Source of the DNA: Flavobacteriales bacterium
GTDB lineage: Bacteria; Bacteroidota; Bacteroidia; Flavobacteriales_D; Crocinitomicaceae
Direction: 5' to 3'
Length of the DNA: 64,000 nt
Assembly: GCA_022361195.1 (NCBI GenBank)
Contig: JAKSBJ010000229.1
Coordinates: 1 to 64,000, forward strand
This document shows positions 46,295-54,894 of the stretch, piece by piece (within the stretch, counting starts at the first letter, position 1; each line of letters starts with the position of its first letter). Made by a program: the position numbers and the translations under genes. The notes under the pieces are model-generated. The model did no database searches. It was not told the origin of the DNA and saw only the letters and a program-made list of their open reading frames with translations.

Positions 46295-47209
46295 TTAAAA
46301 AGGTGGTACACCAATGGTTTTAAAAACAGGAGTTAATCGGTCTCCAATTCGGAATCCCAAACTCAATTCGTGTCCAAATGTTGAAGCAGTTGTTAAAGGA
46401 GATGTATTCAATATGAAATAATAAGACAATCTAAACTTCTTGTAATCTCCAACTACGGCAGCAATTAATTCTTGTCGAGCTCCACCTAAACCAACTCTAA
46501 TGTTCTTTCCTATTTGCCCAAATTCAGCAAATAAAATTCCTCTCAAATACTGAAATCCGGTTTGGTATCGGTAAGTCGCCATTGGCATTAAGGCAAATCT
46601 TCTTCTTAATCTAAGATGATAAGCTCCATCAACCGAATACTGAATAGGCAGATCATGACTTAAGTGTTCAAAATCTTCATTATTAAGATGGTTGGCTGCA
46701 AATCCCAAATACCAGTGATCCTGATAAATCATTAATCCAGCTCCAAAAGAAAATTGACTTTCTTGGAAGCTTGGTGCACCTGTAAAATAACTTTCTTGTT
46801 TAATTCTGGTCATTCCCGGAGCAACACCTAAACTAATGGCCATTTTCTTAAAAATGAACTGATAATTGATGTTAACGGTTAGTTGACTGTAGGCGTTTGA
46901 AAAGAACTGATCAGCTTTAATTCGTTCGTCAGAATAACTCACTCCCATTCCAATAGCACCAAAACGTTTTTCCTCTTTATTTTCAAGGGAGAGTTTATAT
47001 TCAGCATTTCCCAAATATGTCCCATGATACTGAATGTCAAAAGGAAAATTAAGCCTGCTTGTTACGCTAGCGGATACCTTGTTCCAACTACCATATGAGG
47101 CTGGATTTTGATATTGAGGAGTTAAGCCTTCAGAAAAATAGTAAGGATCTAATTGACTGTTTGCGGTAAAAACAGATAGCAAAAAAATGTAGAAAACAAA
47201 TCGTCTCAT
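46295..47209 (-). CDS. PorP/SprF-family type IX secretion membrane protein
   Basis: A 304-residue outer-membrane protein. Signal peptide 'FVFYIFLLSVFTANS', followed by 'LTPQYQNPASYGSWNKVSAS' (the early 'NPA' motif), 'RFGAIGMGVSYSDERI', 'IFKKMAISLGVAPGMTRI', 'GAGLMIYQDHWYLGFAANHL' and the C-terminal 'STFGHELSLGFRI'. This is the standard PorP/SprF pattern. These proteins anchor or deliver T9SS substrates carrying type B sorting domains. No type B cargo gene is adjacent, which is a little unusual. The next gene on the strand is the CWC protein. Confidence 0.9.
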   Translation of the reverse strand: MRRFVFYIFLLSVFTANSQLDPYYFSEGLTPQYQNPASYGSWNKVSASVTSRLNFPFDIQYHGTYLGNAEYKLSLENKEEKRFGAIGMGVSYSDERIKADQFFSNAYSQLTVNINYQFIFKKMAISLGVAPGMTRIKQESYFTGAPSFQESQFSFGAGLMIYQDHWYLGFAANHLNNEDFEHLSHDLPIQYSVDGAYHLRLRRRFALMPMATYRYQTGFQYLRGILFAEFGQIGKNIRVGLGGARQELIAAVVGDYKKFRLSYYFILNTSPLTTASTFGHELSLGFRIGDRLTPVFKTIGVPPF

Positions 47210-47605: not shown

Positions 47606-47707
47606 TGATTCTAAACTCAAAGAATGCCCTTAAATTGTCTTATTTCTAGCCACTTAATTACGCTTTTATTTCTAATTTCGTTTCGTTTTAGAGCCTTACT
47701 TCCCAAA

Positions 47708-50700
47708 ATGTCAAACTACTCAAAACTTATCTTAATTCTGGGAGTGATTTATTCACTCTTTCCCGGCAGTTTGAACGCTCAAAGAATCATCTCTTATGGT
47801 CCTCCCAAAAAGGTTCGTTTAGAAACTCCTTTTAAAGGAATGCCTCTAAAGTACTTAACCTATCAGTTTGACATTAGTACCGGACTTAATACCAACTCTA
47901 TTTTCCAAATTACAGAGGACGACAAAGGGAGAATTTGGTTTGGTACCTCTCATTCGGGATTTGGTTGTTTAGATGGAGAAAATTTCTATGCTTATGGGGC
48001 GCACAACGGATTTTTCGAACGCTCGAGTCGAATTAATTCCAACGGTGATGGTAGTATTTGGATTGGAGGGAATGGAATTGGAGTTAGTTGCCTAAAAGAT
48101 GGTTATAAGAATGTGCAGTACATTGATATCGGTAATACCATTTCGGATGTCCATATTCAAGGGATAAAGAGTGACTCTAAAAATAATGTTTGGGTAAGTA
48201 CACGACTTGGTGGTGTTTCCTGTATTAAAAAGGATACTACTTTAATGTGGAATCATGAAGCATTTGGTTTTGAAGGATCAGAAAATGATAAGCGAGCTTA
48301 TATCCGTCAAATGACCATTGATGCTGAAGATAGAGTTTGGGGAATTGTAGATAAGAAGGTTTTTTACATTGAAAATGGCGAAATCATTTATCCTGATTAT
48401 CCCTTATGCCGAGGCAAAAAGTTTAAACGATTAGGAGCCGATGGAGAAGATTATATTATTGCATTGGACGAAGAAGGTCAGTTTTATAAATTAACTCCTC
48501 AACTATCTCAAAATCTAGACATCAAATTTCCTATTCCGGATCATCCTAAAATAGAATTGATAAAAACGGATCGTAATGGGGTTTTATTCATGTCTACCAG
48601 CCAACATTTATTTAGAGTAATTGGACTTGAAGCTGAAGAAATGCTGAATAATCATCGCAATGAATTTAACATTAGTGATTTTTATTTTGATCGGAATAAT
48701 TCTCTGTGGATTGGAACATCAGGAAAAGGATTGCTCTACATACCCAAATTTAACCTCATTCGTGTGGATGGACTGCAAACACTACGAACCAGCGAACATT
48801 TAAAGCTAATGAACAACGGGAGTCATTTTGTCAATATTAGTTTAGATGAAAAAGGCTTTTTAAAATATGATACCCTCCAAAAAATCTCTGATCCTAACCC
48901 CCAAATAGATGCTTATGAGCTGAGTAAGGGGATGTACCTAACCGTCAATAATAAAAGCTACTTTTTTGACAAAAATGGAACTTCAAAACCAGCAAAAGCC
49001 GCTAAGTATAGTCAGTACTACGACTTAAAGACCCTATATGGAATTAACTGGATGTGGGATAAAAATTGGAACTTAGTATTTGAAAATGAATCGGGGAAGT
49101 TTATTACCACTTCCATCAAAGGGCGGGAAAGTAACTTATTTCACCGCAAGGGAGATGACTTATTCTTTTGGTCTACCCCCAATCATCAAAATGAGTTTGG
49201 TATTTACCGCTCTAATTCCAAAGGTGAAACGGAAACCGTAATGGAACATATTTTGGGCGATTCTTTGAAGTTAACAGGCTTTAAGTATGTCAACGATACT
49301 ACTTTTTTGATTTCTTCCTGGGGATATTTTCTCTTTAAAGTAACTCCACATACAGCCGAAAGGTTTTCTCGAAATTTAGGCTCTAATATCCTTTATAATT
49401 TTCGCCTAGACCAATTAGATGGCCTTTGGGTCGGAGGAATTGAAGGAGGATTAAATTATTTCAACGCCATAACAGATTCTGCCGTAAACATACAACCGCG
49501 TAATGGACTCAGTGGGGGAAGGTTGACCGATTTGAGAATTACAAAAGATAATAATGCCTTAGTTGGAACACAATTGGGAATTGATATTTTCCGCTTAATC
49601 AATCAAGATCAAACCGTTAAATCAGAAGAGGATTTCTTTCAACGTTATAAACACACCTCTTACACCTTTAAAAATGGTTTAATTGGACAAGGATTCAGAG
49701 ATTTATATCAGGATCAATATGGGAATGTCTGGTTTAGTGGTTACCGAGGTGTTCCCCACATCCTGCTAAAGGATGATTCTTTGCAATTAAAACCTCAGCA
49801 CCTACTATTTGAATCAATCATTTTAGAAGAACGAGATGGTAAACACAAGACATTATTTGACTGGATTCCAGGTCGTGAGTATCAAGCTCCAACAAACTTA
49901 AGTTGTAACTATGATGAATCACTTTTATTGACCGTTAGATCAGTTTATTTTGAAAATCACGCCCAACAAGCTTATAGCTTCAAATTGGATGATAACAATT
50001 GGACTCCTCCCCACAAATCTTCCTTTTTCCGCTTGGGAGGACTCAGTTCAGGAGAACATCAGCTGGCAATAAAAGCCATTGGAGACCATAACCTTGAGTC
50101 GGAAGTTATCACAATAAAGGTGATGATTTCTGGTCCTCTCTATCAATCAGCACTTTTTTGGTCAATCATCATTCCACTCTTCCTTTTGCTGATCTATCTA
50201 ATCTTCCGTTGGAGGTTACATATTTTGAAAGAACGAGAAAAGCAACTGGAACAAACCATTAAGGATAGAACTGAAGAAATTCAATTACAAAAGGTTGAAA
50301 TTGAAACGCAGCATAACGAAATCAAAGACAGTATTAGTTACGCCAAACGAATTCAGGAAGCCATTTTACCCGCACCAAGGTTAATTAAATCCTTTTTGCC
50401 GGAGAGTTTTGTCTTGTACAGACCAAAGGACATTGTTGCTGGTGATTTTTATTGGTTTGAGTCGATAGGAGACACTGTCATATTTGCTGCTGCGGATTGT
50501 ACTGGTCATGGAGTTCCGGGGGCCATGGTCTCTGTGGTATGTCACAATGCCTTAAACAGGGCCGTGAGGGAGTTCAAGCTAACTCAACCAGATCAGATTT
50601 TGAATAAAACGCGGGAATTGGTTATTGAAACCTTTGAAAAGTCAGAATCCAACGTTAAAGATGGAATGGACATCGCTATTTGCAGTATCAATACAAAAAC

Positions 50701-51061
50701 ACTCGAACTTAATTTTGCGGGAGCGAATAACCCTATTTACATTGTAAACGAAGGGGAACTCAATGAATTAAAAGGTGATAAACAACCTGTTGGTATCTTC
50801 GAGAATCCTCGGCCCTTTACCAACCATACCGTTCAATTAAAAAAGGGTAATCTTGTTTACAGTTTTACCGACGGATTCGCCGATCAGTTTGGTGGTGAGA
50901 AAGGAAAAAAATTCAAATACCGTCCCTTTAAAGAATTATTGGTTCATCAGTGGCAATCAAAAATGAGTGATCAGCATGATACCATCAATGACATTTTTGA
51001 AAGTTGGAAGGGAGATTTAGAACAAGTTGACGATGTTTGTATTATCGGAATTCGACTTTAA
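47708..51061 (+). CDS. Two-component-regulator propeller receptor with PP2C (SpoIIE) phosphatase output
   Basis: About 1117 residues from ATG 47708 (MSNYSKLILILGVIYSLFPG); the frame from 47624 is longer but lacks a good start. Signal peptide ends 'SLNAQ'. A periplasmic Reg_prop propeller follows ('IFQITEDDKGRIWFGTSHSG', 'DRNNSLWIGTSGKGLLYIP'), then a Y_Y_Y domain ('HAQQAYSFKLDDNNWTPP'). A helix ('SIIIPLFLLLIYLIFRW') leads to a coiled coil and a SpoIIE/PP2C phosphatase with 'RPKDIVAGDFYWFE' and 'ADCTGHGVPGAMVSVVCHNA'. It converts an external signal into serine/threonine dephosphorylation, possibly of an anti-anti-sigma protein. None is adjacent. Confidence 0.92.
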   Translation: MSNYSKLILILGVIYSLFPGSLNAQRIISYGPPKKVRLETPFKGMPLKYLTYQFDISTGLNTNSIFQITEDDKGRIWFGTSHSGFGCLDGENFYAYGAHNGFFERSSRINSNGDGSIWIGGNGIGVSCLKDGYKNVQYIDIGNTISDVHIQGIKSDSKNNVWVSTRLGGVSCIKKDTTLMWNHEAFGFEGSENDKRAYIRQMTIDAEDRVWGIVDKKVFYIENGEIIYPDYPLCRGKKFKRLGADGEDYIIALDEEGQFYKLTPQLSQNLDIKFPIPDHPKIELIKTDRNGVLFMSTSQHLFRVIGLEAEEMLNNHRNEFNISDFYFDRNNSLWIGTSGKGLLYIPKFNLIRVDGLQTLRTSEHLKLMNNGSHFVNISLDEKGFLKYDTLQKISDPNPQIDAYELSKGMYLTVNNKSYFFDKNGTSKPAKAAKYSQYYDLKTLYGINWMWDKNWNLVFENESGKFITTSIKGRESNLFHRKGDDLFFWSTPNHQNEFGIYRSNSKGETETVMEHILGDSLKLTGFKYVNDTTFLISSWGYFLFKVTPHTAERFSRNLGSNILYNFRLDQLDGLWVGGIEGGLNYFNAITDSAVNIQPRNGLSGGRLTDLRITKDNNALVGTQLGIDIFRLINQDQTVKSEEDFFQRYKHTSYTFKNGLIGQGFRDLYQDQYGNVWFSGYRGVPHILLKDDSLQLKPQHLLFESIILEERDGKHKTLFDWIPGREYQAPTNLSCNYDESLLLTVRSVYFENHAQQAYSFKLDDNNWTPPHKSSFFRLGGLSSGEHQLAIKAIGDHNLESEVITIKVMISGPLYQSALFWSIIIPLFLLLIYLIFRWRLHILKEREKQLEQTIKDRTEEIQLQKVEIETQHNEIKDSISYAKRIQEAILPAPRLIKSFLPESFVLYRPKDIVAGDFYWFESIGDTVIFAAADCTGHGVPGAMVSVVCHNALNRAVREFKLTQPDQILNKTRELVIETFEKSESNVKDGMDIAICSINTKTLELNFAGANNPIYIVNEGELNELKGDKQPVGIFENPRPFTNHTVQLKKGNLVYSFTDGFADQFGGEKGKKFKYRPFKELLVHQWQSKMSDQHDTINDIFESWKGDLEQVDDVCIIGIRL

Positions 51062-51193: not shown

Positions 51194-51505
51194 ATGAAAA
51201 TCTTTGCCCTGATTTTTATCGTGATGTTTGGGGTATGCTCATTTGCTCAGGAATCCTCGAATTCAAAGAACTTCTATTATTTCAAAATAGAGTCTGTTGA
51301 TAATTACGATGATGCTAAGCATACCATCTATGAGCTGCGTCAAATCCTGGGAGATGTTCCCATGTACTTTGACGACGAAACAGACAAATTCAAAATGGTA
51401 ACTCACTTACATTTTTTGGAAGAGGAAATTGTAAATCGTCTTGCCATTGCAGGATTTGAGATTGTTGAACCGATGACCATTATTTACCATTTAGCAACAG
51501 AATGA
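51194..51505 (+). CDS. Secreted 103-aa protein, copy 1 of duplicated module
   Basis: A small exported protein with signal peptide 'FALIFIVMFGVCSFAQ'. The mature 84 residues read as strand-helix-strand-strand-helix-strand ('FYYFKIESVDNYDDAKHTI', 'ELRQILGDVPMYFDDE', 'KMVTHLHFLEEEIVNRL', 'EPMTIIYHLA'), which fits a ferredoxin-like alpha/beta sandwich. No family is recognised. It overlaps the P-domain protein gene by 4 bases and has a close copy at 53180-53491. Pairing and coupled translation suggest the two products act together. Confidence 0.78.
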   Translation: MKIFALIFIVMFGVCSFAQESSNSKNFYYFKIESVDNYDDAKHTIYELRQILGDVPMYFDDETDKFKMVTHLHFLEEEIVNRLAIAGFEIVEPMTIIYHLATE

Positions 51506-52908
51506 AAAAAAGGATTTTATATCTGTTCTTAATGATCCTAGGGACATTGAGTGGAAAAGCACAGACTACTTTTTCTACTTCCCCTTCTGCTGCTATTCCA
51601 GGATTGGTAACAACTACCTCCAATATTACAGTAAGTGGTATAGGGAACATCAGCTGCGCAATGGGATTAACTGAGGTTTGTATTAATATCACCCACCCAT
51701 GGGATAGTGATTTAGACATCTTTTTAAGGGATCCGTCTGGAACCGATTATGAACTAACAACAGACAATGGAGGTGGTGGAAATAATTACATCGTCACCTG
51801 CTTTGATATGACAGCTGCAACCAATGTAACAGCTGGTACAGCTCCATTTAATGGCTCTTTTGTTCCGGAAGGAGATTTGGCAGCTGTAAACAACGGGCAA
51901 AATGCCGACGGAGTATGGCAATTGCGAATTTTTGATGACTTTATTGCTGATGACGGAATTTTAAATAGTTGGTCATTAACTTTTGATAACTCTCCTCCTT
52001 GTCCTCCTCCACCATTGATTGAGGATTGTTTAGGTGGAACCACCGTTTGTTCGGATGCAACATTCTCAGGAAATAGTTCTGGTTCAGGAGATGATGTAGA
52101 CCTTACAGGAGCCAATGATGGTTGCTTAAATGGTGAAAATGAAAGCTCATGGTACTATTTTTCATCGTCAACAGCAGGAGATATTGAATTTACCATTATT
52201 ACAACTGTAGATTATGATTTTGCAGTTTGGGGACCTTATACCTCAGCTACTTTAAGCTGTCCTCCATCCGGTCCTCCAATTCGTTGCTCTTACTCTGGAA
52301 GTGTTGGTAATACAGGACTCGCCTCCGGATCTGGTGATAATTCCGAAGGATCAGGTGGTGATGCATTTGTTAATGAGATTAATGCCTCTGCCGGAGATGC
52401 TTTTATCATGGTGATTGATAATTATAGTTCTGATGGTTCAACCTTTACACTAGATTGGACAGTTTCAGGTGGAGCTTCGTTAGACTGTACACCTTTACCT
52501 ATCGATTTTGGCAAATTAAACGGACAGGTTCTCGGAACAAATGAGAACTTACTGCTTTGGTCCACTCTTTCCGAATCAGATAACGCTCATTTTTTACTTC
52601 AACGTAGAACGGAATTTTCCGACTTTGAAACAATTGCTCAAATTGATGGAGCTGGAACAACTTCAGAAAAACAATTCTATTCTTACACAGATCGTACTGC
52701 TCCAAGAGAACTGAATTATTACCGCTTAATTCAAGTTGATTATGACGGAGATGAAGAGATTTTAGAAACCATTTCATTGGACAATCGCATCGATGAAGAA
52801 AAAATTCTGAAAGTGGTTAACTACCTCGGACAAGAAGTCTCAGATAGTTATAAAGGAATGGTAATCATCTATTATAAAGATGGTACAAGCCGTAAAGCTA
52901 TTCGGTAA
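51502..52908 (+). CDS. Secreted P-domain protein with sorting-like tail, copy 1
   Basis: A 468-residue exported protein. Signal peptide 'LYLFLMILGTLSGKAQ'. Residues 30-160 form a proprotein convertase P-domain ('CINITHPWDSDLDIFLRDPS', 'GSFVPEGDLAAVNN', 'GVWQLRIFDDFIADDGILNS', 'WSLTF'). A proline link 'PPCPPPPLIEDC' leads to a cysteine-containing beta domain (about 175-345, 'SSWYYFSSSTAGDIEFTI'). The C-terminal part has 'LLLWSTLSESDNAHFLLQRR' and 'ELNYYRLIQVDYDGDEE', then a tail 'VVNYLGQEVSDSYKGMVIIY' like a shortened T9SS type A sorting domain. It is presumably delivered to the surface by the T9SS. No catalytic domain is visible, which is odd for a P-domain. Confidence 0.85.
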   Translation: MKKRILYLFLMILGTLSGKAQTTFSTSPSAAIPGLVTTTSNITVSGIGNISCAMGLTEVCINITHPWDSDLDIFLRDPSGTDYELTTDNGGGGNNYIVTCFDMTAATNVTAGTAPFNGSFVPEGDLAAVNNGQNADGVWQLRIFDDFIADDGILNSWSLTFDNSPPCPPPPLIEDCLGGTTVCSDATFSGNSSGSGDDVDLTGANDGCLNGENESSWYYFSSSTAGDIEFTIITTVDYDFAVWGPYTSATLSCPPSGPPIRCSYSGSVGNTGLASGSGDNSEGSGGDAFVNEINASAGDAFIMVIDNYSSDGSTFTLDWTVSGGASLDCTPLPIDFGKLNGQVLGTNENLLLWSTLSESDNAHFLLQRRTEFSDFETIAQIDGAGTTSEKQFYSYTDRTAPRELNYYRLIQVDYDGDEEILETISLDNRIDEEKILKVVNYLGQEVSDSYKGMVIIYYKDGTSRKAIR

Positions 52909-53179
52909 TTTCATTACTATCAACTTTTCAATTAGAACAACAAAGAAGTTCTAGACAGCTTTGATTTTTCTTGGCTCACATCGCCTGTAGCAAAAAATAT
53001 TGCTTCAGATTTTATACTAAGCATTCTTCTTACAAATAGCATCCGAACTTGATTTTCTTTCGGAAACTGCACTCCTGCGTTAGTTTTTAATATTGCGCTC
53101 TACGGAAATTATTGGTTGTTTCTACCCTTTTCTTTTCCATAATTTGAATTCTGTCACATCACAAATTACTTTAAAACCC

Positions 53180-53491
53180 ATGAAAATCTTTACCCTCATT
53201 TTTATGATGATGTTTGGAGTATCCTCATTTGCTCAACAATCACCAAATTCCCGAAACTATTATTATTTCAAAATAGAGTCTATTGATAATTATGCTGATG
53301 CTAAGCATACCATTCATGAACTACGCCAAATTTTCTCAGATGTTCCTATGTACTTCGACGATAACGCAGACAAATTTAAAATGGTAACGCATTTGTTTTT
53401 TACTGAAGAAGAAATCACAAATCGCCTATCAACTGCAGGTTTTAATCTTACTGAGCCAGTAACAATTATTTACCAAAAAGTATCGGAATGA
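53180..53491 (+). CDS. Secreted 103-aa protein, copy 2 of duplicated module
   Basis: Paralog of the gene at 51194, same length, gapless by eye and roughly 70 percent identical. Start at ATG 53180 (MKIFTLIFMMMFG); the frame from 53093 is longer but spurious. Signal peptide ends 'VSSFAQ'. The mature part keeps the 'YYYFKIESIDNYADAKHTIH' and 'VPMYFDDNADKFKMVTHL' strand-helix pattern. Changes sit mostly at surface-type positions, so the protein is under selection. It overlaps the second P-domain gene by 4 bases. Confidence 0.78.
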   Translation: MKIFTLIFMMMFGVSSFAQQSPNSRNYYYFKIESIDNYADAKHTIHELRQIFSDVPMYFDDNADKFKMVTHLFFTEEEITNRLSTAGFNLTEPVTIIYQKVSE

Positions 53492-54894
53492 TAAAAAAGG
53501 GTTTATATCTATTTTTAATGCTATTGGGGACTGTAAGTGGTAGAACACAAACGACCTTTTCAGCATCACCCTCTTCAGCTATTACAGGGCTATCAACAAC
53601 CACTTCTGACATTACCGTTAGTGGCATTGGTAACATTAGTTGTGCTATGGGATTAACTGAGGTTTGTATTAATATCACACATCCATGGGATGGCGATTTG
53701 GATATCTACCTACGCGATCCTTCAGGTACCGATTATGAATTGACGACAGATAATGGAGGGAGCGGAGACAACTACATTGTCACTTGCTTTGATATGAATG
53801 CTACAACCAATATAGACGATGGCTCAGCCCCTTTTAATGGTTCTTATGTACCAGAAGGAGATTTGGCTGCTGTCAACAATGGTCAAAACGCCAATGGCAC
53901 ATGGCAGTTAAGAGTTTATGATGACTTTAGTGATGATGATGGGGTTTTAAATAGTTGGTCTTTGACCTTTGATAACTCTCCTCCTTGTCCCCCTCCACCA
54001 TTGATTGAAGACTGCTTGGGGGGAACAACCGTTTGCTCAGATGAAACCTTCTCAGGAAACAGCTCAGGTTCTGGAGATGATATAGACCTGACAAGTGCTA
54101 ATGAAGGTTGTTTAGATGGAGAAAATGAAAGCTCATGGTATTACTTTTCATCTTCATCAGCTGGAGATATTGAATTTACCATTGTTAACTCTGTAGATTA
54201 TGATTTTGCAGTTTGGGGACCTTATACAACAGCAACTTTAAGTTGTCCTCCCTCTGGGGCTCCGCTTCGTTGTTCCTATTCTGGAAACATAGGAGATACG
54301 GGCTTGGCAATTGGTTCGGGAGATAATTCCGAAGGATCAGGTGGTGATGCCTGGGTAAATGAAATCAATGCTTCAGCTGGAGATGCCTTTATTCTGCTTA
54401 TTGACAATTATACTGCCGATAATTCAACTTTTACGTTAAACTGGACAGTTTCTGGAGGAGCTTCATTAGACTGCACTCAATTACCCATTGATTTTAATCA
54501 ACTTAGTGGTCAAATATTGGATCCTAACACAAATTTATTGTTTTGGTCAACGCTTTCAGAATTAGACAATTCACACTTTATTCTCCAACGTAGGTCAGAG
54601 TTTTCGGACTTTAAGACAATTGCACAAGTTGAAGGAGCGGGAACAACTTTAGAAAAGCAATTTTATTCCTATACCGATCGTACAGCTCCTAATGAATTGA
54701 ATTATTATCGTCTAATTCAGGTGGATTTTGATGGTGATGAGGAGATTCTAGAAACCATTTCATTGGACAATCGCATCGATGAACAAGAAATTCTGAAAGT
54801 GGTTAATTATCTTGGACAAGAAGTTTCTGACAGCTACAGAGGGCCTGTTATCATCTATTACAAGAATGGTACAAGTCGAAAAGCAGTTCGCTAG
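53488..54894 (+). CDS. Secreted P-domain protein with sorting-like tail, copy 2
   Basis: Paralog of the gene at 51502, exactly 468 residues and collinear without gaps; by eye about four fifths of residues agree. Signal peptide 'LYLFLMLLGTVSGRTQ', P-domain ('CINITHPWDGDLDIYLRDPS', 'GTWQLRVYDDFSDDDGVLNS'), proline link, cysteine beta domain ('SSWYYFSSSSAGDIEFTI') and the same tail ('VVNYLGQEVSDSYRGPVIIY'). Most changes are conservative. It is translationally coupled to its small partner. Confidence 0.85.
   Translation: MIKKGLYLFLMLLGTVSGRTQTTFSASPSSAITGLSTTTSDITVSGIGNISCAMGLTEVCINITHPWDGDLDIYLRDPSGTDYELTTDNGGSGDNYIVTCFDMNATTNIDDGSAPFNGSYVPEGDLAAVNNGQNANGTWQLRVYDDFSDDDGVLNSWSLTFDNSPPCPPPPLIEDCLGGTTVCSDETFSGNSSGSGDDIDLTSANEGCLDGENESSWYYFSSSSAGDIEFTIVNSVDYDFAVWGPYTTATLSCPPSGAPLRCSYSGNIGDTGLAIGSGDNSEGSGGDAWVNEINASAGDAFILLIDNYTADNSTFTLNWTVSGGASLDCTQLPIDFNQLSGQILDPNTNLLFWSTLSELDNSHFILQRRSEFSDFKTIAQVEGAGTTLEKQFYSYTDRTAPNELNYYRLIQVDFDGDEEILETISLDNRIDEQEILKVVNYLGQEVSDSYRGPVIIYYKNGTSRKAVR

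Follow-up and report, generated by a model that had tools for sequence, protein, structure and literature searches.

A putative exported partner protein encoded in front of GNS-domain proteins, probable type IX secretion cargos, in Crocinitomicaceae

A single shuttle, PorV, is described as recognising every type A cargo protein of the type IX secretion system, T9SS (PMC12618676). Type B cargos need a PorP/SprF shuttle of their own, which is encoded adjacent to the cargo gene, commonly downstream of it, and recognises the C-terminal signal (PMC12618676, PMC9143113). Short T9SS signals are known from Prevotella intermedia, the only species reported to possess both short and long signals; they comprise 43–55 aa and contain the motifs B, D, and E, of which B and D have invariant glycines and are 1–6 aa apart and E has a basic residue (PMC11969387). 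In a review of T9SS effectors the words "chaperone" and "partner" are both absent (PMC10202324), and among the papers searched on co-secreted or chaperoned T9SS cargos no pair of the kind reported here was found described.

The DNA analysed here, referred to as the window, is a stretch of 64,000 nucleotides from a Flavobacteriales bacterium of the family Crocinitomicaceae. It contains, twice in tandem, a gene for a 103-aa protein followed by a gene for a 468-aa protein, both predicted to be exported.

A duplicated gene pair and its products

Direct reading of the sequence places the first small gene at 51194–51505 and the first large gene at 51502–52908, and the second pair at 53180–53491 and 53488–54894, all on the forward strand. 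Both small genes start with ATG; in the second copy, the program listing open reading frames prolongs the small frame in 5' direction to a TTG, but by homology the gene begins with the ATG at 53180. In both pairs the stop of the small gene and the start of the large gene share an ATGA (51502–51505 in the first copy), an overlap that suggests translational coupling of both genes. The period of the unit is 1986 bp, with 271 bp separating the units. The copies are 73% identical in their small and 83% in their large proteins, close to the 70 and 80% that the first-pass annotation had estimated by eye. That annotation had also taken the equal lengths and the conserved overlap as a sign of co-evolution. 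However, both follow from the duplication and on their own are no evidence of co-evolution, for which the evidence comes from other genomes and not from the tandem copies. The dN/dS comparison that it had proposed gave 0.17 for the small and 0.07 for the large gene at dS values of about 1.0 and 1.4, so that the duplication is not fresh and purifying selection acts on both genes. Both copies of the module were retained, and no further copy of the small gene was found in the window genome.

The gene immediately upstream of the module (47624–51061, forward strand) encodes a 1145-aa protein with a two-component-regulator propeller and a SpoIIE phosphatase domain, possibly a signalling neighbour. 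A gene of the PorP/SprF family (46298–47209, reverse strand; PF11751, E 9.4e-16) lies further upstream, at a distance of about 4 kb from the module.

The large protein is composed of a predicted signal peptide, a P-domain, a middle domain which is named GNS in this analysis, a fibronectin type III (FnIII) domain, and a 45-aa tail. The P-domain had been recognised before, as had the lack of a catalytic domain, and both observations stand; that GNS, FnIII domain, and short tail make up most of the protein had been missed. The P-domain occupies residues 58–161 in both copies (51673–51984, forward strand, in copy 1) and matches PF01483 with E values of 1.7e-11 and 5.8e-15 in copies 1 and 2, its scores of 44.5 and 55.6 bits lying above the gathering cut-off of 21 in both. 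It is the sole Pfam match of the 468-aa protein, in which no catalytic or protease domain was found by Pfam and no toxin domain by Pfam or NCBIfam. GNS has about 165 aa and the pattern VCSDxxFxGNSxGxG ... ENxSSWYYF ... DYDFAVWGP ... CPPxxxPxRCSY, and was located with profile A3 at 52018–52509 (E 3.1e-72) and 54004–54495 (E 2.8e-70), both on the forward strand. Comparison of GNS with Pfam yielded no match and comparison with solved structures no confident one, and a sequence search with both window proteins against solved structures gave nothing useful. The structural model of the 468-aa protein is of fair confidence for the FnIII domain and the tail only; for GNS its confidence is low and therefore no fold is claimed. 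The FnIII domain of copy 1 (residues 333–428; 52498–52785, forward strand) was assigned by VIA-align with a Z of about 10–11, and pLDDT values in this part are mostly about 65–86. In other genomes of the same class (L131–L136), GNS is found directly behind the signal peptide of proteins of about 700 aa, often in tandem and without the small partner.

The tail, a candidate short T9SS signal, lies at 52771–52905 and 54757–54891 on the forward strand (profile A10, E 6.7e-22 and 2.1e-18). Related tails in alignment A10 have 40–48 aa, two invariant glycines (G20 and G29) at a short distance from each other, and a basic residue close to their end; the position of motif D is mostly not G-x-Y/N. Neither copy matches TIGR04183, the canonical T9SS sorting domain, which is matched with 33–44 bits by five GNS proteins with long tails and has at least 150 matches in the window genome; the short-tail profile matches only the two large proteins of the window there. 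With its make-up from signal peptide to candidate C-terminal signal, the large protein is a probable cargo of type IX secretion.

The small protein is predicted to consist of a signal peptide of about 19 residues (residues 1–19) and an alpha/beta domain, modelled as strand-helix-strand-strand-helix-strand with a core pLDDT of about 94, which supports the ferredoxin-like fold that the first-pass annotation had ascribed to it. The best Foldseek match is Atx1 (E 4.4e-3). Superposition by VIA-align on Atx1 and heavy-metal-associated (HMA) domains gave a Z of 7.8 over 75 residues with an rmsd of 2.7. Neither result is decisive alone, and Z values below 8 may reflect no more than a common arrangement. 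The predicted structure resembles that of HMA domains. The mature parts of both window small proteins contain no cysteine and hence no CxxC, and no match to HMA was obtained in Pfam; matches to Lit, Sipho_tail, and DUF3736 were below the cut-off and were taken as chance.

Occurrence of the small gene with GNS in other genomes

The closest pairs are those of Crocinitomix (C. catalasitica, C. algicola, and two metagenome-assembled genomes), where the pair recurs with its 4-bp ATGA overlap in all 4 fetched loci (L057–L060) and so is no chance arrangement. As judged from translations read by eye, these pairs lie downstream of a DUF4197 gene, and the gene behind them resembles either pheT or a glycosyltransferase gene, neighbours that differ from those of the window module. 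A separate tandem duplication of the module is present in one of these loci (L058, 5702–9621), with small proteins 42% and GNS domains 84% identical. Across the family the pair is found again, and the commonest overlap is 4 bp.

In genome G022, a galactose-binding-like domain (PF23759, E 2.7e-7) stands in place of the P-domain, and small gene, GNS, FnIII domain, and tail are all kept. Similarly, a cargo of G069 (L097) is composed of signal peptide, GNS, FnIII domain, and tail with no N-terminal domain, and the small gene overlaps its start by 4 bases. When 149 genomes were searched with the profile of the small family (F1), all 13 confident matches (E <1e-6) adjoined a GNS gene, including one in G032 whose sequence was absent from the set used to build the profile. 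No F1 gene was seen in front of P-domain proteins lacking GNS, and since the partner is kept where the P-domain is missing, the idea that it belongs to the P-domain was discarded. The first-pass annotation had held that wide occurrence of the small gene away from P-domain genes would speak against the pair; such occurrence is real with regard to the P-domain, whereas 13 of 13 confident small genes accompany a GNS protein. Distances among small proteins and among GNS domains were correlated over 13 pairs (Mantel r 0.70), a value expected from shared ancestry alone and thus no evidence of contact.

Upstream regions were compared in three sets: GNS cargos, cargos that have a P-domain or FnIII domain but lack GNS, and long-tail cargos from the window's own genome. 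As partner was counted an open reading frame of 60–175 aa with a signal-peptide-like start, on the same strand and ending between –35 and +80 bases from the cargo start. A small exported partner was detected for 26 of 26 short-tail GNS cargos from nine genera, several of them from one genus; 19 have a separate partner gene (18 by the rule, L097 by hand) and 7 a fused one. Most of these partners belong to F1, two (L099, L103) to a second family, F2, and one (L036) falls outside this assignment. Among short-tail cargos without GNS only 4/28 possess a partner, so that the short tail was rejected as the feature which the partner follows, and the count of 0/34 among the own genome's long-tail cargos likewise speaks against a partner common to every T9SS cargo, an idea that was rejected. 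For long-tail GNS cargos in the order, the rule detected 16/25 and inspection adds L039, L230, L232, L235 (fused), and L236; no partner was seen for L107 and L118, and for L231 and L234 none was found by the automatic rule. With automatic counts only, Fisher tests gave p = 1.7e-9 for short-tail GNS cargos against the own genome, p = 7e-5 against short-tail cargos without GNS, and p = 1.9e-8 for long-tail GNS cargos against the own genome; these statistics ignore kinship, the GNS cargos were picked by their likeness to those of the window, and the additions by inspection were not blind. An earlier, broader control had given 39/53 versus 10/51 (p 2.5e-8). Several of its ten positives plainly have no exported partner, and five (L178, L186, L195, L214, L215) look real, so that the link to GNS is strong but not exclusive. 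These results show that the small gene tracks GNS, strongly though not absolutely, and not the P-domain.

In seven GNS cargos (L034, L035/L104, L038, L041, L096, L098, L116) the small domain is fused to the N-terminus of the cargo. Genes which are separate in some genomes and fused in others are a classical sign of joint function. One genome (G026) holds both a separate and a fused form, related to each other at a blastp E of 1e-13. The fused group, together with two related separate proteins, aligns with the main family by hhalign at E 3e-5 with a probability of 73% over 61 columns; a relationship of the most divergent fused small domains to the separate ones is weakly indicated. Such fusions are equally compatible with a chaperone that escorts the cargo, a folding helper of the propeptide kind, and a subunit exported together with it. 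The earlier proposal that both proteins are co-evolving partners rather than a passive cargo is borne out as to a lasting partnership by the conserved pair, the seven fusions, and the purifying selection, but the P-domain on which that proposal centred is not what the partner follows.

F2 (alignment A7) is a family of small, presumably exported proteins that precedes CUB-like GNS cargos and has no match in Pfam. Its profile gave 32 matches in the 149 genomes, about 22 of which adjoin a GNS gene by coordinates. In G069, F2 and F1 genes both stand before one GNS cargo (L301, 1402–1815 and 2057–2416 in reverse-complement coordinates), and in G025 another large exported protein has an F1-like and an F2 gene in front (L320, 959–1321 and 1414–1788, reverse-complement coordinates). 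F2-like genes from one genus (L315, L323, L324, L325) have no downstream cargo gene in the stretch fetched.

Possible roles of the small protein

It is, in our judgement, rather probable, with ample room for doubt, that the small protein is a dedicated exported partner, either an escort chaperone or a co-secreted subunit, of a T9SS cargo with exchangeable binding domains. It would reach the periplasm by means of its own signal peptide, fold as a cysteine-free HMA-like domain, and meet the cargo there, binding to its constant part, most likely GNS, and leaving the exchangeable front domain free. It might then act as a cargo-specific escort ahead of the passage through the outer membrane, or be exported as a subunit together with the cargo. 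The first-pass annotation had named a secreted complex or a carrier with its chaperone, and such a pair is plausible. A wider reading, which we offer tentatively and as somewhat short of probable, is that cargos defined by GNS each possess a small exported partner, F1 with its HMA-like fold or the apparently unrelated F2, encoded in front, sometimes both, or fused; this partner would escort or complete the cargo, the domain preceding GNS being freely swapped, and the whole would form an undescribed layer of the T9SS.

A narrower version of the favoured explanation, in which the small protein is a permanent surface-bound subunit of an adhesin-like cargo, appears doubtful as the full account. 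It would fit the fused forms, which hold the small domain in the same polypeptide as the C-terminal signal, and the separate small protein, which itself lacks such a signal, but a domain fused at the N-terminus may just as well be a chaperone of the propeptide kind that can be removed. That the two genes are ordinary operon neighbours, the small one being kept by linkage and functionally unconnected to the cargo, is improbable: small exported genes do precede some non-GNS cargos, yet the contrast of 26/26 short-tail GNS cargos, from several genera and different loci, with 0/34 in the own genome argues against it, as does repeated fusion.

Much less credence still is given to two further readings. 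Atx1 and HMA domains being its best structural matches, the small protein might bring a metal ion to the cargo in the manner of Atx1; this is very unlikely given the mature window proteins free of cysteine and CxxC, the missing Pfam HMA match, and the Z below 8. The other reading, a large protein that harms competitors and a small one that shields the producer, takes up the immunity role once suggested for the small protein and would be in line with paired small and large exported genes, in tandem and divergent. It is likewise very unlikely, as the parts found are P-domain, galactose-binding-like, CUB-like, and FnIII domains only with no recognisable toxin domain among them, as seven loci have both parts joined in one protein, and as selection is purifying, not diversifying.

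Comparison with known systems

If the favoured reading of a dedicated exported partner is true, a class of cargos has a conserved small partner, and a dedicated factor is required by some T9SS cargos. This would further yield one domain and two families of small proteins absent from Pfam, along with a compact two-gene system. If the short tails are T9SS signals, the known range of this kind of signal, to date reported for a single species, would widen. These tails share with the short signals of P. intermedia a length of about 45 aa, two invariant glycines at close distance as in motifs B and D, and a basic residue towards the end, but differ in occurring in Crocinitomicaceae and relatives and in a motif D that is mostly not G-x-Y/N, and their role in secretion is putative. 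Proprotein convertase P-domains (PF01483) are usually joined to a protease domain, whereas the window protein, which matches at residues 58–161, has none, and in related modules the P-domain is dispensable. The small protein shares, by prediction, the strand-helix order of Atx1-like HMA domains, its best structural matches, but lacks CxxC, any cysteine in the mature window proteins, and a Pfam match, and its gene is linked to that of a presumably secreted partner. Although it is a 103-aa alpha/beta protein with a predicted signal peptide, is encoded upstream, follows an internal domain, and does not belong to the PorP/SprF family, the arrangement resembles that of type B cargos and SprF in that a cargo-specific partner is encoded next to the secreted cargo.
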